64,000 nt of DNA from assembly GCF_000969445.1 (NCBI RefSeq), contig NZ_JZEY01000054.1, positions 744,001-808,000 of the forward strand, given 5' to 3'. The notes under the pieces are model-generated. The model saw nothing but the letters and a program-made list of their open reading frames with translations, did not search any database and was not told the origin of the DNA. The number at the start of each line of letters is the position of its first letter. Position 1 is the stretch's first letter. Shown piece by piece: positions 2,636 through 16,503 of the stretch. The position numbers and the translations under genes are program-made. Source of the stretch: Devosia chinhatensis. Lineage in GTDB: Bacteria; Pseudomonadota; Alphaproteobacteria; Rhizobiales; Devosiaceae.

Positions 2636-2694
2636 CAAGCCTGCATAAGCTCCCCGTACGGACGCAATGACGTTCGACTTGTTTGGGAGGAATT

Positions 2695-3639
2695 ATGAAC
2701 AAGCTGCTTCTTGCGGCGCTGGTTTCCGGCGCCCTTTCGGTGTCGGCCTACGCGGCCGACTACAATATCATCGCGCCAGCAGCACCGGGTGGTGGCTGGG
2801 ACCAGACGGCCCGCACGATGCAGGAGGCCCTGGTTTCGAGCGGTGTGTCCTCCAACGTGCAGGTGGTCAATGTTCCCGGCGCCGGTGGGACCATCGGTCT
2901 GGCCCAGTTCGCCACCCAGGAATCGGGCAACCCCAATGCCCTGATCGTCGGCGGCTACGTCATGGTCGGCGCGATCCTGACCAACGCGTCCCCCGTAACC
3001 TTGGAACAGGTGACCCCGATTGCACGCCTCACCGGCGAAGCCGTGGCGATTGTCGTTCCGGCTGCATCCGATATCCAGACGCTCGATGATCTTGTCGCCA
3101 AGCTGAAGGAAAACACCGGCGCCGTATCCTGGGCCGGCGGGTCAGCTGGTGGTGTCGATCACATCACGGCAGGCCTTATCGCTAAAACAATCGGGGCTGA
3201 TCCGACGCAGGTCAACTACATCGCCTATTCCGGCGGTGGTGAGGCCCTTGCCGCCGTACTTGGCGGCCAGGTGACGGTCGGCATTTCGGGCATCAGCGAA
3301 TTTGCGTCCCAGATCGAGGCCGGCGATCTCCGCCTGATCGCGGTTTCGTCCGAAGACCGCGTGCCGGGCGTTGATGGCCCCACCCTCAAGGAAGCCGGCG
3401 TCGATCTGGCTGTTCAGAACTGGCGCATGGTTGCCGCCGCTCCGGGCATCTCCGACGAGCAGAAGGTTGCCATTACAGCCGACATCCAGACAATGGTTCA
3501 GTCCGACGCCTGGCAGGCTGCTCTCGAAAGCCGCGGCTGGGTCGACACCTACCTTGATGGCGAAGCCTTCGATGCGCAGCTTGCTGCCGACATCGCCGCG
3601 ACCGAGACCATCCTGAAAGACATCGGCCTGGTCCAATGA
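2695..3639 (+). CDS. tctC: Tripartite tricarboxylate transporter, periplasmic binding protein TctC
   Basis: This 314-aa protein starts with a classic signal peptide ([15 protein letters not shown]..., cleavage near AYAA at residue 21) followed by the Bug/TctC fold: [14 protein letters not shown] near residue 27 and the [12 protein letters not shown] loop near residue 58, both characteristic ligand-binding motifs. It captures a carboxylate in the periplasm and delivers it to the TctAB membrane complex. I chose the ATG at 2695 because GGGAGGA sits just before it; an in-frame TTG at 2683 lies inside that ribosome site. tctB follows with an ATGA overlap, so the three subunits are translationally linked. 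Citrate, tartrate or another di/tricarboxylate is possible; the sequence does not decide. Confidence 0.94.
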
Positions 3640-4136
3640 CAACAGGCTCCTCCAGGCCCGAGCGCCGCCCCGATGGGGCGGCGCTCGTCATCGCGGCCAT
3701 ATTGGCAGGGTTGGCCATAATCATCTTCTGGCAGACCAGCCAGATGCGCGTACCCCCCATCCAGCAGCGTGTGGGGCCAACGGTCTTCCCCTATGTGATT
3801 GCCTCAGGCCTGCTCCTGCTGTCGATCGGCACCATCGTCTCGGCCCTGCGCAACGGGTTTCCCGAACGCAGCAAGGACGATTACCGCCCGATTTTCTGGA
3901 TCGTCGGTGGCCTTGTCGGTCAGATCCTTCTGCTGTCGACGGCCGGTTTCTCGGTGGCGACGGGCGTGCTCTTCGCCTTCACTGCCAAAGCGTTCGGGCG
4001 CGGACCTCTCTGGCAGACCATTCCCATAGGTATCGTCTTTGCCTTCATCGTCTGGTTCATTTTCGCCAAGGGCCTGATGCTGTCGCTGCCGGCGGGTGTG
4101 CTTGAACGGTTGCTGACCACGGGGAGCCTCGTCTGA
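3636..4136 (+). CDS. tctB: TTT transporter small membrane subunit TctB
   Basis: A 166-aa hydrophobic protein with about four membrane spans (around residues 15-33, 50-68, 88-115 and 130-150). It has the TctB/DUF1468 layout: a first helix, a short polar loop with [16 protein letters not shown], then three helices. TctB is the small, poorly conserved partner of TctA in the secondary, ion-driven uptake system. It overlaps tctC by 4 bp (ATGA), and its TGA shares one base with the tctA ATG. Position between tctC and tctA supports the call as strongly as the sequence does. Confidence 0.9.
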
Positions 4137-5683
4137 TGAATACGTTCGAACTCCTCGGCCAGGGTCTCATCGCGGCCTTGCAATGGCAAAACCTGATCTA
4201 CGCCCTGATCGGTGTGACCCTGGGAACAGCCGTGGGCGTACTGCCCGGCATCGGCCCGGCGTTGACCGTCGCGCTGTTGCTGCCCGTGACCTACAAGTTG
4301 GATCCGGCCGGGTCACTGATCATGTTTGCCGGCATTTATTATGGTGGCATGTATGGCGGGTCCACCACGTCCATCCTGCTCAACACGCCGGGCGAAAGCG
4401 CCTCGATCGTCACCGCGCTCGAGGGCAACAAGATGGCGCGCAAGGGCAGGGGCGGCCCAGCACTTGCCACGGCTGCCATCGGGTCCTTCGTCGCAGGCCT
4501 GATCGCCACCCTCGGCCTCGCCTTTATCGCGCCCTTCGTGGTCCGGTTTGCCCTGTCCTTCGGGCCCGCCGACTATTTCGCTCTGATGGTGCTGGCCTTT
4601 GTGACCGTTTCGGCCGCGTTCGGCGACAGCGCACTGCGCGGCCTGACGGCTTTGTTTATCGGTCTCGGATTGGGCTTGATCGGGATCGACCTGCAGTCGG
4701 GCCAGACACGCCTTGCCTTCGGGGTCATGGATCTGCTCGACGGCATCGAGGTGACCACGCTGGCCGTGGCTTTGTTCGCCATCGGCGAGACGCTCAAGAC
4801 CGCTTCGGATCGTGAGCAAGTTGCTGCCAAGGTGATGGCGGTCAAGGGGTCGGTCTGGATGACCCTTGGAGATTGGAAGCGCAGTTGGGCCGCCTGGCTT
4901 CGTGGCACGGCCATCGGTTTTCCGATCGGCGCCATGCCCGCGGGCGGGGCCGACGTGGCCAGTTTCCTGTCCTACAGTGCCGAAAAGAGCTTCACCAAGC
5001 ATCCCGAGGAATTCGGAAACGGGGCAATCGAAGGCGTCGCAGGACCCGAAGCAGCCAATAATGCCTCGGCGGCAGGCACGCTCGTGCCACTCCTGACGTT
5101 AGGCCTGCCAACTACGGCAACTGCGGCTATTATGCTGGCCGGCTTCCAGCAATTCGGGCTGCAGCCCGGCCCATTGCTGTTTGCCAACAATGCGCCGTTG
5201 GTCTGGGCGCTCATTGCCAGTCTTCTGGTCGCCAACTTCATGCTGTTGGTGCTCAACCTGCCGCTGATCGGTCTGTGGGTAAAGCTGCTGACCGTGCCCA
5301 AGCCATGGCTTTATGCCGGCATTCTCGTCTTCGCTACCCTCGGCACGCTGGGGGCAAATGGCGCGATGTCCATGGGGATCGGCCCGGTTCGGATTTCGTT
5401 CGAGCTCGTGCTGCTTTTGCTGTTCGGTATCCTGGGCTATTTCCTGCGCCGCTTCAGTTACCCGATCGCTCCGGTCGTGGTGGGCCTGATCCTCGGACCC
5501 ATGGCCGAACAGCAATTGCGCCGTGCCCTAGCGATCAGCCAGGGCGATCCTGCGATCCTCGTCAACTCGCCCATTTCCATGGTGCTCTATGTGGTTGCGC
5601 TGATCGCCGTGGGCCTGCCGCTCATCCTGCGTCTGCGCGGCAAGGGCAAGGTCCTTGGCCAGCTGGCAAGCGACGAGGACTAG
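4136..5683 (+). CDS. tctA: TTT transporter large membrane subunit TctA
   Basis: A 515-aa polytopic membrane protein, the usual length for TctA. The family signature [18 protein letters not shown] spans residues 70-87, and a related repeat ([17 protein letters not shown]) follows in the second half near residue 320, reflecting the internal two-fold repeat of the family. Other conserved parts are [11 protein letters not shown] at residue 34 and [12 protein letters not shown] near residue 304. It forms the translocation path with TctB, fed by TctC. It is the last gene of the tctCBA operon; a strong terminator follows 33 bp after the stop. The substrate is not readable from sequence. Confidence 0.95.
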
Positions 5684-6195: not shown

Positions 6196-8658
6196 TCAGG
6201 GCTTGGGAGAAACGATCTCCTGCCAGGTGTCGATAAACCGCTGCCGTCTCAGCGTGTCGAGAGCGACCAGGAGCCCCGGGCCGATTGGAATTGGCTGGAT
6301 AACGCCACGCCCGCGGGCGGCAATGGCTTCGCTGGTCCAATCTCCTGAACCATCGGGCACAACGGCACCCAGGGCCGTCGGGCCGGCGGCCACTGCCTGG
6401 CCGGCTGGCGAGAGCGCGAAATCGATGAAGGCGCGCGCCAAGTCGGCATGTCCAGCGTCGCGGGGAATGAGCATGGATCGCGTCAGCACAAGAACGTAAT
6501 CGTCCGGCACCACGATCTCGATATTGGCGCCCTCTGCCTGTCGGGCAAAAGCGTACGAGCCCAGCACGTTATAACCCAAGGCAAGGGTGCCGTCGGCCAC
6601 GCCGTTGAGAATGGCCGGACTGGACCCGGAGAACTGTGCGTTGACACGTCCGAACGCGCTGGCCAGTCGCCAGAAGGTGGATGATATGGTCTGATCCTGC
6701 GCCGCCAGGAGATAACCCACGCCGGAGAGGGCGATGTCATAGGTGGCTATCCGGCCGCGGAACCGCTCGGTCTGGGTTTCGAGTAGTTCAGCCAGCGTGA
6801 GGTGACTGCGGGGTACTTCAGCCCCGGTGATGAGATCGGGATTGTAGATGATGACGGCCGGCTCGAAGGTGAAGCCAAAGACCTCGTTGCGCCAGTGCGC
6901 CCAGTCGGGCAATGCGTCCAGAAACGGACTGTCATGCGGCTGGGCATATCCGTCATTGGCCAGCTTCAGTTGAAGGTCGGATGCTGAGCTGATCAGCAGG
7001 TCCGGAAGGGCTGAAAGCGAGCCGGCAAGATAGTTCTCATAGAGTGGCCTTGAGTCCCACTCTTCGTAGATCACCCCAGTATCGGGATGCAGGTCCTGGA
7101 AGGCGGCGATGAAATACTCGAATAACGGCGTATCGGTGGTGCCAAAGATCGTCAGGACCTTTTCGGTGCTACCATCGGGCGCCGCGTGCACGCTGGTGGC
7201 GGCGTCGACGGACTGAGGTGGCAGGGTGATGAGCGCGCTGGCGAGAATAAGTGCCATCGCCAGCCCCGGCACGGCCGAGCTTCGTTTCGGAGTGGGCAGC
7301 GTGATGGCGACGATCAGCCCGCCACCATCCCGATCCTTCAGAGACAATTGGCCGCCATGCGCTTCGACCACCCGGCTGACAATGGAAAGTCCAAGGCCCG
7401 AGCCGGCCGTCCCTGCACTGGTCGCGCCGCGCTTGAACCGTTCGAGCACCATCGTTTTCTCGCTGGCGTCGATGCCCGGCCCGCGATCCTGCACAATGAC
7501 CTCCAGGCGACCCGCACCCAGCGTTCCGCTGATTTCGACAGGGCTGGACGAATACACCAGAGCGTTGTCGACCACATTGCGCATCATTTCCCGCAGGGCC
7601 ACCCTGTCACCGCGGATGATTGCCGTTCCGGCCCCGGTCGCCAAGTCCACTTGAATGCGGCTTGCCTGGTCCGGGTCCAGCCGCTGGCGGACATCGTCGA
7701 TCACGGCGCCCAGTGTCGTGGCGTCATTATCCTGGTTTTCGAGGCGATGGGAAATCGTAGCCTCCATGAGCAGCTGGCTGACCAGCTGACTTGCCTGCAC
7801 GGCACCGGTATGAATGCGACCGACGCGGCGGCGCAGTGCTTCGGGGTCCTGCTCATCCATCGCCACCTCCGCCTGGGCGCGCAGCGAGGCGAGCGGCGTC
7901 CGCACCTCATGAGCTGCTTCCGCCACAAGACCACTCACGCGCTCCATGGCGTTGCGCAGCCGGGCCATGAAGCCGTTGAGCGCTGACACTAGATGCTCGA
8001 CCTCGCTGGGCACGGGGACGGTAATGGCGGAAAGGTCGTCGGGCGCACGCGCGCGCAGGTCCTGTTCCAGCTGGGTGAGCGGCGCAAACATGCGGGTGAT
8101 ACCGAACCAGACGAGGCCCACGGCGAGGAAGGTCAGCGCGATCACGGGCAGCACGGCATTGGAGAGGATTTCGTTGGCCAGGGAATTGCGCTGGTTTTGC
8201 GTTTCGGCAACATGAATGGTGACCCATCCTGTGTCGCTGGGCGTGGAGATCAGGCGGCCAACGCTGACCACCCTTACGAGGTCTTCGCGATAGACGAGAT
8301 CGGAGAAATGCGGTTCTCCGGAAACAGTTTCGGGCATATGCGCGGCGAGGTCCTCATAGCCGGTCACGGTGCGCGCATAGGGGTCCTCTACTGCGTAAAA
8401 GACCCGGTCCTGGCCGGAAAACATCGCAAAGGCGGCAAACGGAATTTCGACGATCACTGCCTCGGCTTCCACCTGCACGGCTCCGGCGATGGTGAGCGCC
8501 GACGCGGCCAGAAGTCGATCGAAGGCCCGGTCTGCAGCACGTTCCGCATAGTCGCGGATGAAAACGATCAGGACCAAAGAGGCAAGCAGGAGCAGACCCA
8601 CCGCCAAAGCGAAAATCCGCCGGCGCAGGGAGAATGGCTTGATGGTTAGGGCGCGCAC
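6196..8658 (-). CDS. Histidine kinase fused to a C-terminal periplasmic substrate-binding domain
   Basis: This 820-aa protein is a TctE-like sensor kinase with an extra part. TM1 is about residues 15-34, a periplasmic sensor domain runs 35-165, TM2 is about 167-186, HAMP follows, then the H-box AAHEVRTPLASLR with phospho-acceptor His250. Next come the N-box (MMRNVVDNAL, about 358-367), G1 DRGPGID (391) and G2 GSGLGLSIV (419). After the ATPase domain a third hydrophobic stretch (about 463-480) ends in a signal-like junction. Residues 498-815 form a family-1 solute-binding domain of the AfuA/PgtC type (LTIFGTTDTPLFEYF, GYNVLGSYAFA). The binding domain should therefore be periplasmic. The GTG start directly abuts the regulator's TAG stop. 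Its neighbour tctCBA suggests carboxylate sensing. The whole reads in one frame, so it is not an artefact of joining two frames. Confidence 0.9.
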   Translation of the reverse strand: MRALTIKPFSLRRRIFALAVGLLLLASLVLIVFIRDYAERAADRAFDRLLAASALTIAGAVQVEAEAVIVEIPFAAFAMFSGQDRVFYAVEDPYARTVTGYEDLAAHMPETVSGEPHFSDLVYREDLVRVVSVGRLISTPSDTGWVTIHVAETQNQRNSLANEILSNAVLPVIALTFLAVGLVWFGITRMFAPLTQLEQDLRARAPDDLSAITVPVPSEVEHLVSALNGFMARLRNAMERVSGLVAEAAHEVRTPLASLRAQAEVAMDEQDPEALRRRVGRIHTGAVQASQLVSQLLMEATISHRLENQDNDATTLGAVIDDVRQRLDPDQASRIQVDLATGAGTAIIRGDRVALREMMRNVVDNALVYSSSPVEISGTLGAGRLEVIVQDRGPGIDASEKTMVLERFKRGATSAGTAGSGLGLSIVSRVVEAHGGQLSLKDRDGGGLIVAITLPTPKRSSAVPGLAMALILASALITLPPQSVDAATSVHAAPDGSTEKVLTIFGTTDTPLFEYFIAAFQDLHPDTGVIYEEWDSRPLYENYLAGSLSALPDLLISSASDLQLKLANDGYAQPHDSPFLDALPDWAHWRNEVFGFTFEPAVIIYNPDLITGAEVPRSHLTLAELLETQTERFRGRIATYDIALSGVGYLLAAQDQTISSTFWRLASAFGRVNAQFSGSSPAILNGVADGTLALGYNVLGSYAFARQAEGANIEIVVPDDYVLVLTRSMLIPRDAGHADLARAFIDFALSPAGQAVAAGPTALGAVVPDGSGDWTSEAIAARGRGVIQPIPIGPGLLVALDTLRRQRFIDTWQEIVSPKP

Positions 8659-9327
8659 CTAGCCGACGACCCGCATCAGGTAACCGACGCCGCGAACCGT
8701 ACCGATCTCAACCTGCGCACCATCGAGCTTCTTGCGCAGGCGGGAAATATGCAGCTCGAGCGCATTGATGGAAACGCTCTCGTCGAAATTGAACAGCTGG
8801 TTCATCAGCCGTTCCTTGGGCACGACCTTGCCCGCATGGGCCACAAGGATTTCAAGGAGCCGGAATTCCCTCCGGCCCAGTTCAAGGGCGCGCCCGTCGA
8901 TGGCCGCGTTGAGGGCCGAAAGGTCCAGTTCGAGATTGCCCAGGGTAATGGCGCTGGAGGCCTGGCCACCGGTGCGGCGCAGCAGGGCGCGCAGCCGCGC
9001 TTCGAGCTCGCGCAGATCGAACGGCTTGACGAGGTAATCATCGGCTCCAAGGTCCAGCAGGCTGACCTTGTCGTCAATCTCCGAACGCGCGGTGATGACC
9101 AGGATAGGGGCATTGAATTTTCGCTTGCGCAGGTCCGAGATCAGCCCGATGCCGTCGCGATTGGGCAGCATCAGATCGAGCGTCACCGCGTCGAATGGCT
9201 CGCTTTCCGCCATGGCCACGACCTGAGCGCCATCCTTGACCCATTCGACCGAATGGCCGGCGCTGCGCAGCCGCTTCTCGATGGCTTCGCCCAGGTCCTC
9301 ATTGTCTTCGACGAGCAGAATTCGCAT
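8659..9327 (-). CDS. OmpR-family response regulator, TctD-like
   Basis: A 222-aa two-domain regulator. The receiver domain has the acidic pocket (VEDNE at 6-10), phospho-acceptor Asp51 in TLDLMLPNRDG, and the conserved Lys in DYLVKPFD near residue 101. A winged-helix DNA-binding domain follows from about residue 125, with RREFRLLEIL and RLRKKLDG. It is cotranscribed with the kinase: its TAG stop touches the kinase GTG. TctD-type regulators activate tricarboxylate transporter genes, and the tct operon lies 3 kb away. The direct repeats upstream of tctC are a plausible target. A 60-bp gap separates it from the phosphatase gene upstream on the same strand, so read-through from that operon cannot be excluded. 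Confidence 0.92.
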   Translation of the reverse strand: MRILLVEDNEDLGEAIEKRLRSAGHSVEWVKDGAQVVAMAESEPFDAVTLDLMLPNRDGIGLISDLRKRKFNAPILVITARSEIDDKVSLLDLGADDYLVKPFDLRELEARLRALLRRTGGQASSAITLGNLELDLSALNAAIDGRALELGRREFRLLEILVAHAGKVVPKERLMNQLFNFDESVSINALELHISRLRKKLDGAQVEIGTVRGVGYLMRVVG

Positions 9328-9387: not shown

Positions 9388-10194
9388 TCACGGATTCTTC
9401 TGCGGCACGTCCTTGAGCTGCTCGATGAGATAGGCGTGGGTGGCAGGATTGGCGACGATCATCGCGCCGGTGGCCTCATAATATTCGGGGCCGCGCCCCC
9501 ACCAATCCGTTACGACGCCGCCGGCCTCGAGAACCATCAGGATGCCTGCTGCGGTGTCACCGAAGCCGGTTTCCTCGAAATAACCGGTCAGCCGGCCACA
9601 GGCCACATAGGCGCAGGAATTGGCGGCGCTGCCGACGATCCGCACCCCGCCGATGGGAGCGCGGATGGCGTCGAGCCGGGCATAGGCGCCGGGGTGCAGC
9701 GACAGGTTGGGCGTCGGCAGGCCGGTGCCCACCGCCATGAGCGCGACGTCCTGGCTCTGGCTCACCTGCAGCCGCTCGCCGTTGAGAAAGGCGCCGCCGC
9801 CCTGGATGGCGGTGAACATTTCGTCGCTGACCGGATTGTAGATCAGTCCGCACAATGTCTGGCGTCCATGGCGCAGCGAAATGGTGATCGTATAGTGCTG
9901 GCCATTGAGAAAATTGGTTGTTCCATCAATGGGATCGACCAAGAACCTATAGTCCTGGTTCTCGCCTTCGGTTGGGGGAAATTCCTCCCCGGTGAGGCTC
10001 CAGCCGGGATAGCGGGACAAGAGGTGATTTCGGATCAGCGTCTCGGAGTCCCGGTCGGCGTCGGAGACGAAATCGCCCGGGCCCTTGATGCCGATTTCGA
10101 GGTCACGGAAGCGTTTGAAATGCTCAAGCGTCAGCGCGCCGGCCTGGCGGGCGGCGTCAATCATGTCGTTCAGGATCTTGTCGATTTCGGTCAT
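9388..10194 (-). CDS. Inositol monophosphatase family phosphatase
   Basis: A 268-aa enzyme with the FIG/IMPase metal-site motifs in order: GEE at residues 69-71, DPIDGTTNF at 87-95 (Asp87 and Asp90 bind Mg2+), and GDTAAG with EAGG in the C-terminal half. The family removes phosphate from inositol-1-phosphate, histidinol phosphate, sugar phosphates or PAP. I chose the ATG at 10194 because it overlaps the upstream stop as ATGA; a longer in-frame extension to 10311 lies inside the neighbouring gene. It is the last gene of the ABC/phosphodiesterase operon. That context points to dephosphorylation of the product released by the phosphodiesterase, but the exact substrate is unknown. Confidence 0.88.
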   Translation of the reverse strand: MTEIDKILNDMIDAARQAGALTLEHFKRFRDLEIGIKGPGDFVSDADRDSETLIRNHLLSRYPGWSLTGEEFPPTEGENQDYRFLVDPIDGTTNFLNGQHYTITISLRHGRQTLCGLIYNPVSDEMFTAIQGGGAFLNGERLQVSQSQDVALMAVGTGLPTPNLSLHPGAYARLDAIRAPIGGVRIVGSAANSCAYVACGRLTGYFEETGFGDTAAGILMVLEAGGVVTDWWGRGPEYYEATGAMIVANPATHAYLIEQLKDVPQKNP

Positions 10195-11033
10195 GTGTCG
10201 AGGGCCGCTGCCAGCCCCTCCGGGTCGTCGGTGGTAATCTGGTCCACCCGGAGCGCGAGGAGCCGGGTGACCTGGGAAATTGTCGTGGAATTGACGTGGT
10301 TTATAGTCCACGCATCCACCTTGCGCCCTGCCGCGTGGACGGCGGCGATCATGTCGAAACCGGCATTGTCGGCGGCCAGCACGATCTCGTGGTGGAGATA
10401 GATGAAAGCGGCGTCAGGCGCGGTGCGAAGGGCGTTCTGAATGAAGGTCTCATGATCGCCCGTGGCCCTGAGCTGTTCGAGCGAGGCGCCGTAGCACGGA
10501 TCGTAGCCGTTCATTAGCCCGGGCGTGGAATTCGTTAGCAGACTGATAGCGTCGAACGCCCCACCAGATACGATAATGTTACGTTTGAACGCAGAAACGG
10601 CCAAAGCGAAGTTTTCGACCGTCAGGTCATCGAGCGCGGCAAGGTCTTCCTTGAAGTCGAGTTGCAGAAGCGCGTCCGGATGCGGCGGATTTTGCCCCAG
10701 CAGATCGCAAAGGTCTTCGAGAAGGAGAACGCGGTCGGGCAGGGGCGATCCGTCGGCTGCGCGCAGGTAAAGCTGGCGCAGGGACGCTGCACCCGTCTCT
10801 CGCACCAGGCCGGTCCCGGTGGTCTCCCGGTCGAGCGTCTTGTCATGCAGCACGGCGCAGCCGTGATCGGCGTGGATGACGAGATCGACCTCGACGCTGG
10901 CACCCAGCCGCATCGCTTCAAGAATGCGGGCGCCGGTGAAGGCGGGGTCTGACGCCTTCCGGCGGCCCCGGTGCCATTTGAGCCAGGTCCGGTGCCCATC
11001 CCGTTCGATATAGAGCGGATCGGTCATGCTCAC
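10191..11033 (-). CDS. Glycerophosphodiester phosphodiesterase family protein
   Basis: A 280-aa GDPD-fold protein without a signal peptide, hence cytoplasmic. The family's HRG catalytic start (WHRGRR near residue 20), the acidic pair in VEVDL (about 48-52) and LHDKTLDRETTG (about 62-73) are all present. The usual PENT after HRG is replaced by SDPAF. GDPDs cleave glycerophosphodiesters to glycerol-3-phosphate and an alcohol. The start may be GTG at 11033, which overlaps the ATPase stop as GTGA, or ATG two codons later. It sits between an ABC importer and an IMPase-like phosphatase, suggesting that the imported compound is an organophosphodiester. Glycerophosphoinositol would fit both enzymes, but this is inference. 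Confidence 0.87.
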   Translation of the reverse strand: MSMTDPLYIERDGHRTWLKWHRGRRKASDPAFTGARILEAMRLGASVEVDLVIHADHGCAVLHDKTLDRETTGTGLVRETGAASLRQLYLRAADGSPLPDRVLLLEDLCDLLGQNPPHPDALLQLDFKEDLAALDDLTVENFALAVSAFKRNIIVSGGAFDAISLLTNSTPGLMNGYDPCYGASLEQLRATGDHETFIQNALRTAPDAAFIYLHHEIVLAADNAGFDMIAAVHAAGRKVDAWTINHVNSTTISQVTRLLALRVDQITTDDPEGLAAALDT

Positions 11034-12067
11034 CCCTGATAGACAAGCGTGCCGTCGCGATAGCCGGCGACGGCCTTGGGCTTGAGATTGGCACCCTGGC
11101 CGGGCTTGAAGAGATCGGGATGGGCGACCATGGCCTTGACGCGCAGACCATCGGGGAGGTCGAGATCGACCAGGCCATGGGTGCCGAAATCGGTCACCCG
11201 GTGAACCTTGGCCTGACCGGGCTCGGCGGCCTCGAGATCGAGGGCCTCCGGGCGCACCGCCATGATGGCGGGACCTTCGAGGATCGGCATCGGCACCGAG
11301 AAGGTGCCATGGTGGAAAACGCCGTCACTGACCTGACCGTCCATGAGGTTCATGGTGCCGATGAAGCCGGCGACGAACGGCGTCTGCGGCTTGCGATAGA
11401 CGACGTCGGGCCGGTCGATCTGCTCGGTGCGGCCATCGCGCATGACAACGATGCGGTCGGCCATGGACAAGGCCTCGTCCTGACCATGGGTGACGAAGAG
11501 CGTGGTGATCTTGAGGCGCTGCTGGATGTCGCGCACTTCCTCGCGCAGGCGTTCGCGCAGGTGCTGGTCGAGACTGGCGAACGGTTCGTCGAGAAGCAGG
11601 ATCTTCGGCTCGAGCACCAGCGAACGCGCAAGCGCCACGCGCTGCTGCTGCCCGCCTGAGAGCTGGCTGACATGGCGATTGCCATAGCCGCCCAGACCGA
11701 CCAGTTCGAGCACGGCCTCGACCTTGCGCTTGATCTCGTCGGCCGGAATGCGGCGGAGCTTGAGGCCAAAGGCAAGGTTCTTGAAGACGTTCATGTGGGT
11801 CCAGAGCGCGTGGCTCTGAAACACCATACCTGTCGGCCGCTTTTCGGGCGGCAGCTGGGTGATGTCCTCGCCATCGATGGTGATCATGCCCGAGCTGGGA
11901 CGCTCGAAACCGCCGACCATGCGCAACAGGGTGGATTTGCCGGAGCCGGACGGACCGAGCAGGCAGACCAGCTCACCGTCGGCGACGTCGAGCGAGAACG
12001 TGTCGACAGCACGGACATTGCCGTTTGGAAAAACCTTGGTGACGTCTTTAATATTCAGAACGGACAT
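11030..12067 (-). CDS. ABC transporter ATP-binding subunit (Fut/Pot/YnjD-like, with TOBE domain)
   Basis: A 345-aa nucleotide-binding subunit. Walker A is GPSGSGKST near residue 37, the signature is LSGGQQQRVALAR near 135, Walker B is ILLLDEPFASLD, and the H-loop His lies in FVTHGQDEAL. After about residue 240 comes a regulatory TOBE-like region ending AVAGYRDGTLVYQG. CAGGAAC lies just before the ATG at 12067, supporting this start rather than the longer open frame. It energises uptake through the two permeases encoded upstream. A 199-bp gap holding a REP-like repeat separates it from the permease gene, while it is tightly coupled (GTGA) to the phosphodiesterase. Confidence 0.93.
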   Translation of the reverse strand: MSVLNIKDVTKVFPNGNVRAVDTFSLDVADGELVCLLGPSGSGKSTLLRMVGGFERPSSGMITIDGEDITQLPPEKRPTGMVFQSHALWTHMNVFKNLAFGLKLRRIPADEIKRKVEAVLELVGLGGYGNRHVSQLSGGQQQRVALARSLVLEPKILLLDEPFASLDQHLRERLREEVRDIQQRLKITTLFVTHGQDEALSMADRIVVMRDGRTEQIDRPDVVYRKPQTPFVAGFIGTMNLMDGQVSDGVFHHGTFSVPMPILEGPAIMAVRPEALDLEAAEPGQAKVHRVTDFGTHGLVDLDLPDGLRVKAMVAHPDLFKPGQGANLKPKAVAGYRDGTLVYQG

Positions 12068-12085
12068 TTTTAGTTCCTGATGCCT

Positions 12086-12140
12086 CCTCTTGCCTTTCCC
12101 CTGGGGGAGAGGTCGGCGCAACGCGCCGGGTGAGGGGGCC
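12086..12140. repeat. REP-like palindromic intergenic element
   Basis: In the gap between the permease and ATPase genes lie two adjoining dyads: a CCTTTCCCC/GGGGGAGAGG inverted pair and GGCGC-AAC-GCGCC, flanked by GGGTGAGGGGGCC. This CCTC...CCCAGGGG-type composition is typical of short dispersed palindromic repeats in rhizobial-type genomes. I see only this copy in the window. It lies between co-transcribed genes, where REP elements often slow mRNA decay. Confidence 0.6.
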
Positions 12141-12266
12141 TTGTCGATATTGGAGTGCAATGTGGGACAGAGGTGAGGCGCAAGGCTCCCGCGTCCGGCC
12201 TGCTGCGCAATCCGATCTCTTCCCCAAAGGCAGAGGTGGTGCGGAAACCGATAAGCTGTTGTCCCA

Positions 12267-13121
12267 TCATGCGCCGAACCCCCGGGCGAAGGCTCCGCCG
12301 CCGATGACACGACGTGCAAAGAGCAGGGCGATGAAGCTGGGGACCCAAAGCATGACCGAAAGGACGGCGCCGAACTGGATGACCATCTGATTGTTGATGA
12401 AGGAAATCATCAGTACCGGCATGGTGCGGATGCCAGGGGCCCCGATCAGCCAGGCGCCTTCGGTTTCGTAGAAGGTGCCGACAAAGCTCAGCAAAACCGC
12501 TGCCGCAATGGTCGGTCCGGCCTGGGGCAGGGTGACGGACCAGAAGACGCGGAAGGGACCGGCGCCGACATCGCGGGCGGCTTCTTCCATGCGGCGGTCC
12601 ACGGACTGGAACGCGGCCACCGGTATCCAGATCATGAAAAGCAGCGTGCCCACCAGCTGGATCAGCACGACGCCCCAGAAGGTGCCGATGAGATTGAGCT
12701 GGAGGAAGATCGCGGCGATGGCGATGAGAAGGCCGAACTTGGGAAAGGCATGGCCGGCCAAAAAAGAGAAGAAGAGGATCGTGCGTCCGGGGAAGTCCAT
12801 GCGGGCAAAGGCATAGGCTGCCGGAAGGCAGATGGCGGCCGAAAGCAGGGTGACCACCGTGGACAATTGCAGGCTGAGCGTCAGCGCCGACCAGACATCG
12901 GCCCGGCTGAGAGTCTGGTTCCAGAAGCGCAGGCCGAATTGCTGCGGAATGACATTGGGATAGCGCCATACCTCGGTAAAGGCCCAGGTGGCGACCACGA
13001 CCAGCGGAAAGATGATCGCAGCCGAGAGCAGGGCGGCAAACAGGATGCCGGTCCAGTCGGTGGGGGCGCGTCCGGCGTCGATCTTTTGTGGACCAAAAAT
13101 GGCGGGGATGAAGCGTTGCAT
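12267..13121 (-). CDS. ABC transporter permease (second membrane subunit)
   Basis: A 284-aa permease with six predicted spans. The EAA-type cytoplasmic loop reads EEAARDVGAGPFRVFWSVTL and ends in a proline-glycine (LPQAGP), around residues 170-195. It pairs with the permease encoded upstream and the ATPase downstream in a YnjBCD/FutB-like importer. I used the ATG at 13121; the open frame extends further but runs into the upstream permease. The start is 1 bp from the upstream permease stop at 13123, so the two are translationally linked. Family membership is clear; the substrate is not visible from the membrane subunit. Confidence 0.92.
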   Translation of the reverse strand: MQRFIPAIFGPQKIDAGRAPTDWTGILFAALLSAAIIFPLVVVATWAFTEVWRYPNVIPQQFGLRFWNQTLSRADVWSALTLSLQLSTVVTLLSAAICLPAAYAFARMDFPGRTILFFSFLAGHAFPKFGLLIAIAAIFLQLNLIGTFWGVVLIQLVGTLLFMIWIPVAAFQSVDRRMEEAARDVGAGPFRVFWSVTLPQAGPTIAAAVLLSFVGTFYETEGAWLIGAPGIRTMPVLMISFINNQMVIQFGAVLSVMLWVPSFIALLFARRVIGGGAFARGFGA

Positions 13122-13122
13122 G

Positions 13123-14007
13123 TCACTTCCCCTGATTGCGTGCGACCGAGCGCACATAGAACAGCCCGAAGGCAATGCAGAAACCGAAGGTGATGACCGC
13201 CTGCGTGATGGCGTTGAGCGGATCGTTCACCTCGCGGAAGGTGCGGTTCATGAACGGGCCCATCATTTCCGGTGAGGCCGGTCCCAGCAGATAGGGCAGG
13301 GTGAAGGACGAGAAGATGCCCAGCACCGCAAAGGAGATGGCGACCAGAACCGAATTGGAGATGCGCGGCAGGATGATGTACCAGAACACCTGGAAGCGCC
13401 TGGCGCCGACATCGCGGGCCGCCTCGATCGCCTGGTTGGAAACACTGCCAAGACCGGCGAGCAGGATGAGAACGGTCAGCGGAATATTGTCCCAGACCAG
13501 ACCGATAACCGGTCCCCAGGGCGTGAGATAGGGCGTGCGGATCTTGGGCAGGCCCACCGAATTGAGCAGGATGTCGACCATGCCGTTGGGCCCCAGCACG
13601 CGGATGAACGCGTAGGCCAGAATGATGGAGGGCACGAACATCGGAAAGATCGCCAGCGCCTGCACATAGGCGGGTAATCGCCCGGGCGAGAAACGCAGAT
13701 AGATGGCGATCGGCAGGCAGATCAGCAGCAGGAGCAGGGCGCACATGCCCGTGGTCCACAGCGTCACCATCAGATTGTTGATGCTGTACTGATCGGAAAA
13801 GAAGAACACATAGCTCGACAGGTTGAAGCCGTAATCGCCATCGACATCGGGGCGCCACACGGTGCGCCAGAAGGCGTTGAAGATCGGCCAGATGATCAAC
13901 CAGGCCATGAGCAGGACAGGCACGGCGACGAGCAGGAGGCCGGTGGGCCTCCTGCTGTCGGACTTTTCGATCAGGGGACGTGCCGCCCCTTCCGCCGCGT
14001 CGGTCAC
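13123..14007 (-). CDS. ABC transporter permease (first membrane subunit)
   Basis: A 294-aa membrane protein with six predicted spans and the EAA loop EAARDVGARRFQVFWYIILPRI near residues 190-211. The GTG start at 14007 overlaps the binding-protein stop in a GTGA arrangement, so the two are translationally coupled. The long periplasmic segment between the first two helices (around 45-75, DVDGDYGFNLSSYVFFF) is typical of the first permease in spermidine/iron/phosphonate-type importers. It forms a heterodimer with the following permease. Confidence 0.92.
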   Translation of the reverse strand: MTDAAEGAARPLIEKSDSRRPTGLLLVAVPVLLMAWLIIWPIFNAFWRTVWRPDVDGDYGFNLSSYVFFFSDQYSINNLMVTLWTTGMCALLLLLICLPIAIYLRFSPGRLPAYVQALAIFPMFVPSIILAYAFIRVLGPNGMVDILLNSVGLPKIRTPYLTPWGPVIGLVWDNIPLTVLILLAGLGSVSNQAIEAARDVGARRFQVFWYIILPRISNSVLVAISFAVLGIFSSFTLPYLLGPASPEMMGPFMNRTFREVNDPLNAITQAVITFGFCIAFGLFYVRSVARNQGK

Positions 14008-15155
14008 GAGTTGCGGTCGACGTTCGGAGCGACGTTACGGTACCAGCCATCGTTGATGGCCGCTTCCCACTGGCCACCGGGGAAGGTGGGGATGGTCTGC
14101 GGGATGATGTCGGCAAAGCGCTCGCGCAGCTCCGCCGAAACATATTCCCAGCTGACACCGGGGAAGCCGCCCAGTTCGGTGAGGATGGCGCTCTGGATTT
14201 CTTCCGAGAGAATGAAATCGGCCAGGAGCAGGGAGGCGTCCCGGTTGGTGCCGGTTTCGAGCACGACGGAGCGGGTGAAGCCACCCACCAGCGCCAGGTC
14301 CTGCAGCTGGACGAGGCCGGTCGTATCGGGCAGCACGCCCTGGTCGATGGCCTGCAGAATCTGGTCGGACCAGACCGGGGTCATGGTGACGACGCCCTGC
14401 GCCAGCAGCTGGATCGACTGGGTATTGCCCGACGAATAGGCGCCGTTGTCGTAGAGCGAGGGAGCGATGTCGCTGAGCAGTTCCCAGGCCTTGCCCAGAG
14501 CTTCGTCGCCGAATTCCTGGGTGTAATTGTCCACGGTGAACATGGACGGGTCCAGCCCATTGGCCTGATGAATGGCACGGCGCACGAAATTGCCGCCCGA
14601 GCCGCCCTTGTCGGGACGATTATAGACGAACTGGCCGGGATTGGCCTTGATCCAGGCGACGAGCTCGTCCCAGGTCTTGGGTGCATCGGCGGGATCGAGC
14701 TTGGTGGTATCGTAGGCCAGCAGGACCTGGCTGCCGCGATAGGGCAGGGAATAATCGGACTGGATGGCGGCGGGATTGACCTTGGAATAATTGGAAAGCC
14801 CGGCTTCCTTCATATTCACGAAAATGCCGGCATCGATAGCGCCGGCGGGCAGGAGCGGGTCGGCAGCCTCGAAGAAATCGGCCTGCGGATCGGTATTGGT
14901 CTGCTGGGCTGCCATGGCGCGTTCGCTGATGGCGATGATGCCGGCGCCGTCGCCCGCATCGACCAGGTTCAGCGTGACGCCGGGATGAGCGGCTTCGAAG
15001 GCGGGTTTGACCGTATTGGTCCAGAAGTCGAGAATATTGCTGTCCGAGCTGGTGTACCAGTCGATGACGCCTTCGGCGGCATAGGACATGCGGGGCAGGA
15101 TGGCCATGCCGGCAGTGGCGGCGGCAGCGGACATCATGAAGGTGCGGCGTTTCAT
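14004..15155 (-). CDS. ABC transporter periplasmic binding protein, family 1 (YnjB-like)
   Basis: A 383-aa secreted protein. The N-terminus MKRRTFMMSAAAATAG has a twin-arginine pattern (RRTFM) before a hydrophobic core, cleaved near SYAA at about residue 27, so Tat export is likely. The mature part has the family-1 fold (IDWYTSSDSNILDFW, YRGSQVLLAYD, TWDELVAWIKANPG), closest in style to YnjB. I chose the ATG at 15155 because GGGAGA precedes it by 8 nt; an ATG five codons upstream lies before that site. It is the first gene of the ABC-GDPD-IMPase operon, behind two LacI-type operators. The ligand is unknown; the downstream enzymes suggest a phosphodiester. Confidence 0.9.
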   Translation of the reverse strand: MKRRTFMMSAAAATAGMAILPRMSYAAEGVIDWYTSSDSNILDFWTNTVKPAFEAAHPGVTLNLVDAGDGAGIIAISERAMAAQQTNTDPQADFFEAADPLLPAGAIDAGIFVNMKEAGLSNYSKVNPAAIQSDYSLPYRGSQVLLAYDTTKLDPADAPKTWDELVAWIKANPGQFVYNRPDKGGSGGNFVRRAIHQANGLDPSMFTVDNYTQEFGDEALGKAWELLSDIAPSLYDNGAYSSGNTQSIQLLAQGVVTMTPVWSDQILQAIDQGVLPDTTGLVQLQDLALVGGFTRSVVLETGTNRDASLLLADFILSEEIQSAILTELGGFPGVSWEYVSAELRERFADIIPQTIPTFPGGQWEAAINDGWYRNVAPNVDRNS

Positions 15156-15377
15156 TTCAAAGTCTCCCATTACGTGACCCGGCGAGCCACGGCGCTTTCC
15201 AGCCGATTGCGGAGGCAGCGTACGGTCTTGGCGACCGAATGGCGAAACCGGATCGGCACCGGTTCGCCCGCCTCATGGGCCTCCTCCCTGCTTCAGCGTG
15301 ACGCGGAAGGGTCCCAATCTGCGCTGGGTGGCCATCCGCGATACGTCATCGCTTCGACAAGACAACACCCATTCTCG

Positions 15378-15395
15378 AATGCACACAAGTGCAAT
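15378..15395. promoter_or_regulatory. LacI-type operator candidate 1
   Basis: The dyad TGCAC-ACAA-GTGCA at 15380-15393, flanked by A/T on both sides, matches the second site at 15457-15474 in 12 of 18 positions when read on the - strand. It sits about 220 bp upstream of the binding-protein start. Confidence 0.5.
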
Positions 15396-15456
15396 ATTCA
15401 AGAATTTCGACTGGCTTCTTAAGCGCGGCGGATAACGCTTTTATGACAGGCAGGGC

Positions 15457-15474
15457 TTTGCGCACGTGTGCAAA
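15457..15474. promoter_or_regulatory. LacI-type operator candidate 2
   Basis: A near-perfect 20-bp palindrome (15456-15475; CTTTGCGCACGTGTGCAAAG) with central CACGTG and only one mismatched pair position per arm. LacI-family sites are typically 16-20 bp palindromes with a central CG, as here. It lies 12 bp past the LacI-type stop codon. Confidence 0.6.
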
Positions 15475-15486
15475 GATTTGAGCAGA

Positions 15487-16503
15487 TCAGGCCGGGCCAG
15501 GCCTGACGGACTGGCGCCAGCGCGGAATGGGCTCGAAAAGAATCCGCCCTGAACCCGCGGAATCGGGGGCTTGCAACAGCTCGAGCACCTGGTCGGCCAT
15601 GGCCTTGAGCGGCTGGGCAAAAGTGGTCAAACGATAGGATTGCCAATCGGCCTGTTCTATATCGTCGAAACCGACGACGCAGAGATCATCTGGAATGCGC
15701 AGGCCGAATTCGTGCACGGCGGCATCCATGAAGCCGAGCGCCAGAAGATCGGTGACGCAGAAAACGCCATCGGGCGAGTTGGAGCGGCCGAAGGCGCGCC
15801 GGCCGGCCTCGAGGCCCGAGGGATAGCCGGTGGGGCCGGTTTCGAACACCGCCACCTCGAGCCCCTCGGCGCCGGCGGCTTCGATGAACACACGCTTGCG
15901 CTCCACAAGGCTGGCCGTATTGGCGGTGGAGGTCACGAGGCCCAGCCGCCGGCAGCCCGCCCGGCGCAGCAGGTAAAAGGCCTCGCGCCCGGCCATGGCA
16001 TTGTCCACGCCCAGATTGTGGCTACCTACGAGCTTGTCGTCGCGATTGATGAGAACGACCTGCTGGCCATTGGCGAGGCAGGTTTCGATCAGCGAGGCGG
16101 GCGGGGTGCCGGAGAGCACCACGGTGGCATCGGCGCGATAATTGAGCGTTTGCCTGAGGGCCTTGGACACGCTTTCCGTATCGGCCTTGGTGTTGATCAC
16201 CATGGTGATCTTGCCCGAGGCCTGCAGCTCGCGGGTGAGCACGTCGACCATGCCGGCGCGGATCGGGGTGGTCATGTCGGCGACCACCAGGCACACGATG
16301 TTGCTGCGTTCGCGCAGGCCACGGGCCAGGTGGTTGACGTGATAGCCCAGGGCGCCGGCCGCCTCGAGCACGCGCCGGCGGGTCTCCTCGGACACGCTCG
16401 CGCCATCGGTGAAGGTGCGCGACACGGCCGAGCGCGACACCCCGGCCTTTTCCGCGACCATGCGGGCGCTGACGAAGGAGCGCGGTTTAATGTCTGACGT
16501 CAT
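15487..16503 (-). CDS. LacI-family transcriptional regulator
   Basis: A 338-aa repressor-type protein. The helix-turn-helix (MVAEKAGVSRSAVSRTF, about residues 15-31) and hinge helix (NHLARGLRERS, about 57-67) are standard. A periplasmic-binding-protein-like effector domain follows, including GVFCVTDLLALGFMDA and the C-terminal VVGFDDIEQADWQSYRLTTFAQP. It presumably controls the ABC/GDPD/IMPase operon immediately downstream on the same strand through the two palindromes in between; autoregulation is not evident. No clear ribosome site precedes the ATG at 16503, so the start is moderately certain. Confidence 0.92.
   Translation of the reverse strand: MTSDIKPRSFVSARMVAEKAGVSRSAVSRTFTDGASVSEETRRRVLEAAGALGYHVNHLARGLRERSNIVCLVVADMTTPIRAGMVDVLTRELQASGKITMVINTKADTESVSKALRQTLNYRADATVVLSGTPPASLIETCLANGQQVVLINRDDKLVGSHNLGVDNAMAGREAFYLLRRAGCRRLGLVTSTANTASLVERKRVFIEAAGAEGLEVAVFETGPTGYPSGLEAGRRAFGRSNSPDGVFCVTDLLALGFMDAAVHEFGLRIPDDLCVVGFDDIEQADWQSYRLTTFAQPLKAMADQVLELLQAPDSAGSGRILFEPIPRWRQSVRPGPA

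Follow-up and report, generated by a model that had tools for sequence, protein, structure and literature searches.

The window analysed here, a stretch of 64,000 nucleotides from Devosia chinhatensis, carries on its minus strand one uninterrupted frame of 820 codons, which starts with GTG at 8658 and ends with a stop codon at 6196-6198. The initial annotation had placed a TctE-like sensor kinase and a substrate-binding protein (SBP) together in this frame, naming no strand, and both parts are recognized in the encoded protein: the 2CSK_N, HisKA, HATPase_c and SBP_bac_6 domains (the last at residues 551 to 758) follow one another in order, and every match lies above its curated Pfam cut-off (Table 1). 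The N-terminal part has the composition of a TctE-type kinase, with two membrane spans (TM1 and TM2) flanking the sensor domain and the phospho-acceptor His250 lying within an AHEVRTPL motif, where it is invariant across 30 aligned fusions. For the C-terminal part, matches were obtained to two binding proteins of known structure, 3c9h (E value, 4e-68) and 7f6e (E value, 3e-44); its earlier designation as AfuA-like holds, in the sense of an SBP_bac_6 or MctA/AfuA-like protein, but the term "family-1" is imprecise. The hydrophobic stretch described at about residues 463 to 480 is present as well. A same-genome search with the SBP part returned one weak match only elsewhere in the genome.

Table 1. 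Features of the kinase-SBP locus in window coordinates
Feature	Position	Strand	Basis or remark
tctC, the transporter's own binding protein; probable target operon	2683-3639	+	PF03401
tctB	3636-4136	+	PF07331
tctA	4136-5683	+	PF01970, E 2.4e-149
Whole kinase-SBP precursor gene (predicted precursor)	6196-8658	-	820 codons, GTG start; one copy in its genome
SBP, predicted mature form, residues 487-820, MctA/AfuA-like	6199-7200	-	Pfam and structure matches
Predicted signal peptidase I site, V484-D485-A486 / A487	7198-7209	-	Ala column 486, small residues in column 484
Internal signal-peptide-like junction, residues 458-486	7201-7287	-	Sequence pattern; pLDDT <50
HATPase_c, residues 350-457	7288-7611	-	PF02518, E 5.8e-22
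HisKA, residues 243-302, phospho-acceptor His250	7753-7932	-	PF00512, E 1.2e-10
TM2, residues ~169-187	8098-8154	-	Inside confident AlphaFold helix 155-190
2CSK_N as matched, residues 23-164, overlapping part of TM1; periplasmic sensor domain	8167-8592	-	PF08521, E 6.7e-34
TM1, residues ~16-34	8557-8613	-	Inside confident AlphaFold helix 11-59; strongly hydrophobic in relatives
OmpR-type response regulator, cognate	8659-9327	-	Best NCBIfam match TctD, under its cut-off

The response regulator gene directly precedes the fused gene, and the tctCBA genes (2683 to 5683) are transcribed toward it. Ninety-five fused frames were read, yielding 84 distinct fusions after removal of identical cores; a response regulator adjoins 83 of these, and TctA is found in the fetched stretch for 60 and is missing from it in 24. 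The kinase-SBP domain order thus recurs across genomes and often beside tctCBA, an association that the initial annotation had raised. Other lineages have other transporters at this place. In Alcaligenes (L150:6527-10577), a second SBP gene that stands alone, an ABC permease and an ATPase come after the fused gene in an AfuABC-like set, and in Bartonella a second SBP and an ABC permease lie next to separate kinase and SBP genes. Two divergent kinase-SBP fusions (L051:9086-12112 and L054:702-3577) stand beside genes for a phosphonate-type binding protein and an ABC permease; they belong to a set (L051 to L054, with the neighbourhood checked for L051 and L054) whose SBP is devoid of the MctA ligand residues described below. 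Because the neighbouring transporters differ between lineages, the partner transporter varies while the kinase-SBP unit is constant. Apart from these transporters, a gene for an AbrB-family (PF05145) membrane protein adjoins two separately placed fusion lineages (L048:2735-3808 and L157:1822-2853). The window also holds, at 9388-16503, a distinct operon for ABC uptake, which comprises a dedicated binding protein (14004-15170), a GDPD, an inositol-phosphatase-like gene and a LacI-type regulator and has no evident link to the fusion.

Among 75 genomes of the same genus, 58 have an SBP match of at least 65% identity over most of its length, and the match falls in a frame longer than 800 codons in 53 of them, in a broken or cut frame in G012, G052 and G056, and in a separate gene in G058 and G065. 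Of the other 52 intact fusions of the genus, 42 were read as full frames and 10 were assessed from the length of their open frame. Across the family (136 genomes searched, Devosia among them), other genera mostly have a separate SBP of about 40% identity, and in a sample of the order (397 genomes) fusions of 58 to 65% identity, confirmed at their loci, were found in three further families (G503, G267, G242, G309, G241 and G176). Among the best 80 of 570 public relatives, fused frames occur in Devosia, Pelagibacterium, Aureimonas, Pararhizobium, Paracoccus and Yoonia and also in Alcaligenes, Pollutimonas, Thorsellia, Skermanella, Roseomonas and Azospirillum, and separate genes occur in Xanthomonas, Stenotrophomonas, Lysobacter, Kiloniella and others. 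Groups with fused relatives are other Rhizobiales, Rhodobacterales, Azospirillaceae, Alcaligenaceae and Thorsellia. Plasmid records agree with this distribution; in those of Azospirillum, the fused frame is annotated as a single gene, "extracellular solute-binding protein," a name that conceals the kinase. No relative of the fusion was found in the viral contigs searched. The three broken or cut Devosia frames are what could be expected of a functionless product of chance fusion or faulty assembly, and in two of them (G012 and G052) the adjoining tct genes are broken too; however, the frame is kept open in 53 of the 75 same-genus genomes and in several other families. An isolated fusion or sequencing error, which had been named as a possible objection, is thereby excluded, and chance or error is refuted as a general account and exceedingly improbable here. 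The kinase-SBP and tct genes of two Devosia assemblies (L061 and L062) contain several broken frames, perhaps owing to assembly quality.

The best structural matches of the SBP are 3c9h and MctA (7f6e and others), with 34 to 36% identity in the structural alignment and a TM-score of 0.92 for 3c9h by target length; the MctA titles in the PDB bear (Mg-)citrate. A literature search on 3c9h and 7f6e brought up only papers on other subjects. We took six ligand positions of MctA from the mutant names in the PDB titles; the ligand positions named for the SBP of this gene are D509, S558, S645, S680 and Y702. In the 71 fusions of the main clade, D28 of MctA is matched by Asp in 69, S79, S164 and Y221 are kept in all 71, and T199 is replaced by Ser in 68 and kept as Thr in 3, with the S26 position being unconserved (V in 31, T in 30, A in 5, P in 3 and S in 2). 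The positions other than S26 are also kept in most of 68 separate SBPs, so that such residues do not single out the fused SBP. The fold is that of MctA and 3c9h, and the citrate-site positions are conserved for the most part. MctA, however, is a component of an ABC transporter according to its PDB titles, whereas here a kinase carries the SBP and tctCBA is the neighbouring transporter. Taken with the adjoining tctCBA genes, the conservation of most citrate-site residues makes (metal-)citrate, or something like it, the probable ligand.

How the SBP is connected to the kinase was read from the junction of the 84 distinct fusions, with the broken or cut frames L061, L062, L063 and L126 left out and L001 to L038 standing outside the counts. 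A median of 14 residues after HATPase_c is followed by a hydrophobic stretch and then by a polar end. Column 486 is Ala in all 84 fusions (entropy 0), within a linker that is variable around columns 484 and 486 (entropy 3.41 at column 485), although the aligner may have slid gaps to match this Ala; among the 64 rows with a YPA-like anchor, 56 have an Ala at one fixed distance before the anchor and 8 have it one residue farther away. Column 484 is occupied by A (59), V (8), T (7), S (4), G (2), Q (2) or others (2), so that 80 of 84 fusions have A, V, T, S or G there. Shortly past the hydrophobic run, 83 of 84 junctions have an Ala together with a small or aliphatic side chain at -3 (25 for TM1 and 34 for TM2), and 62 have the strict AxA pattern (14 for TM1 and 18 for TM2). 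After shuffling of the junction residues, the relaxed pattern was still met in a mean of 76.4 of 84 (maximum, 82) and strict AxA in a mean of 43.9 (maximum, 60; 500 shuffles). Ala is thus abundant at the junction to begin with, and AxA exceeds what composition predicts by a moderate margin only; the positional invariance of Ala486 is the stronger argument.

Hydrophobicity points in the same direction. The median dG of the junction (0.16) shows no difference from that of the signal peptides of 67 separate SBPs (0.40; P = 0.15), whereas the junction is less hydrophobic than TM2 (median, -1.10; P = 7e-21) and TM1 (median, -2.39) of the 84 fusions. The charge is more positive before the junction than after it in 78 of 84 fusions (mean net charge, +2.4 before and -0.6 after), in agreement with the cytosol-to-periplasm orientation that the initial annotation gave to the C-terminal part. 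Together with this n-region charge and the h-region, the small residues at (-3, -1) complete the features of a signal peptidase I substrate. In an AlphaFold model (30 alignment rows; mean pLDDT, 82), TM1, TM2, the kinase and the SBP are confident, whereas residues 458 to 485 have a pLDDT of less than 50 and form no helix of 4 or more residues, a low value that may come merely from the variable, shallow alignment.

The earlier model was a stable three-span protein, whose SBP stays anchored through TM3 and acts in cis on the kinase of the same chain. The charge pattern fits such an in-to-out span, a stretch of marginal hydrophobicity could still insert, and tethered SBPs occur in some ABC transporters; however, the invariant Ala at -1 with a small residue at -3 and a hydrophobicity that is that of cleavable signals and unlike that of TM1 and TM2 speak against it, the AlphaFold model shows no helix at the junction, and relatives have separate kinase and SBP genes. 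Taken together, the junction features are better explained by an internal, cleavable signal than by a stable third span, and we regard the tethered form as unlikely. Of the proposal that residues 463 to 480 span the membrane, the hydrophobic stretch is borne out, whereas the stable span is not supported, which goes part of the way to refuting the proposal.

Another possibility is that translation begins at an internal start codon and yields an SBP of its own, with or without the fusion. In 21 sequences of one Devosia subclade, the codon before an R-R/K-A-L-G signal is ATG (7), TTG (13) or CTG (1), against 68% CTG and 13% TTG among the Leu codons there. The subclade has, however, no conserved Shine-Dalgarno core; TTG fills at least half of the rows in 4 of 88 Leu/Met columns; in the junction of the window's gene, the only candidate start codons are GTG and ATG, all lying in or beyond the span, and nothing resembles a Shine-Dalgarno sequence; and a fully independent SBP gene would leave unexplained why the frame stays open across the junction in 84 distinct sequences. 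This alternative is accordingly rather improbable; separate translation may add a product in some relatives but is not evident in the window's gene. The ATG or TTG codon right before the signal-like stretch (20 of the 21 sequences; L046, L096-L097, L100-L102, L105-L116, L118, L124 and L128) may be a relic of the start codon with which an ancestral, still independent SBP gene began.

When 78 SBP rows were placed on a tree (L061-L063 left out; companion kinase tree by a quick method), 4 changes between the fused and the split state were required, at least 3 of them forced by well-supported branches. A quick tree of 151 rows (L061-L063, L126, L152 and repeated sequences left out) required 6, at least 4 of them forced; long branches make some placements unsure. 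The main clade comprises 74 rows, 71 fused and 3 split, and both trees place the two split Devosia loci within the fused clade. These two loci (L059:5256-8498 and L060:4623-8044) and Bartonella sp. M0177 (L148:4705-7887) have separate genes in the order regulator-SBP-kinase, which a simple stop codon does not explain. In the two split Devosia, the kinases end without a third span, and the predicted signal-peptide ends of the SBPs (VMA/ASTYPAP and ATA/ATTYAAP) align with the junction Ala of the fusions.

Because the junction resembles an export signal with its cutting site kept, the product is probably cut into a kinase and a free periplasmic partner. We put at roughly 0.7 the probability that the gene encodes a precursor cut by signal peptidase I into a kinase and a free SBP that act with the regulator on tctCBA. 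The N-terminal part, from TM1 through the periplasmic 2CSK_N domain and TM2 to HisKA and HATPase_c, would be the TctE-type kinase, and the 29 residues after it would serve as an internal Sec signal peptide that carries the SBP into the periplasm. Signal peptidase I would then cut after Ala486 and release an SBP of about 334 residues, while the hydrophobic stub may stay on the kinase. The SBP would bind (metal-)citrate or a similar carboxylate and, once loaded, dock on 2CSK_N, the proposed docking surface, and activate the kinase, a step modelled on citrate-bound BctC with BctE. By analogy with BctC/BctDE, the kinase would phosphorylate the adjacent regulator, which would control tctCBA.

The elements of this scheme have counterparts in known systems. 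Phosphoglycerate regulation by PgtA-PgtB-PgtC likewise pairs a kinase with a periplasmic binding-protein-like regulator, but from separate genes, where one gene is found here. FbcH, the cytochrome b/c1 protein of Bradyrhizobium, is likewise a single precursor of a membrane protein and a periplasmic protein that is cut at an internal signal; it serves a respiratory complex, whereas the product described here would serve signalling. An fbcH-type precedent within the D. chinhatensis genome was ruled out, because the cytochrome c1 frame has 433 codons and is too short for a cytochrome b fusion. TctDE and BctDE share with the present locus the 2CSK_N kinase, the OmpR-type regulator and the adjacent tctCBA, and in Bordetella a citrate-loaded binding protein, BctC, joins in and is required for BctDE signalling (PMC5812351); there, signalling is served by the TctC homologue that belongs to the transporter and has a gene to itself, whereas here an extra SBP of another family lies within the kinase gene. 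Other binding-protein-dependent kinases likewise have their partner encoded by a second gene, which mostly lies next to the first (in 10 of 11 characterised pairs; PMC11113362). A survey of Azospirillum gives SBP_bac_1 as an input domain of kinases (PMC4618731); these probably share the fused architecture, and fused frames were found in Azospirillum here; domain order, signal and cleavage are outside the discussion in the accessible part of that survey. No description of a kinase-SBP fusion cut by signal peptidase was found in a search of the open-licence literature, where the Azospirillum domain table came closest. Kinase-SBP pairs and internal signals are each already known.

More generally, we lean towards the view that these genes encode polyprotein two-component sensors, from which signal peptidase I would yield a kinase and a dedicated sensory SBP at a fixed 1:1 ratio. 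Such sensors would have arisen several times with different transporters (tripartite tricarboxylate, AfuABC-like ABC and phosphonate-type ABC) and have been undone at least once or twice by the SBP gene moving between regulator and kinase. If true, a bacterial signalling pair would come from one cut precursor and the ratio of sensor to kinase would be fixed, and the fused and split versions within one genus would be natural material for a direct test of this 1:1 supply.
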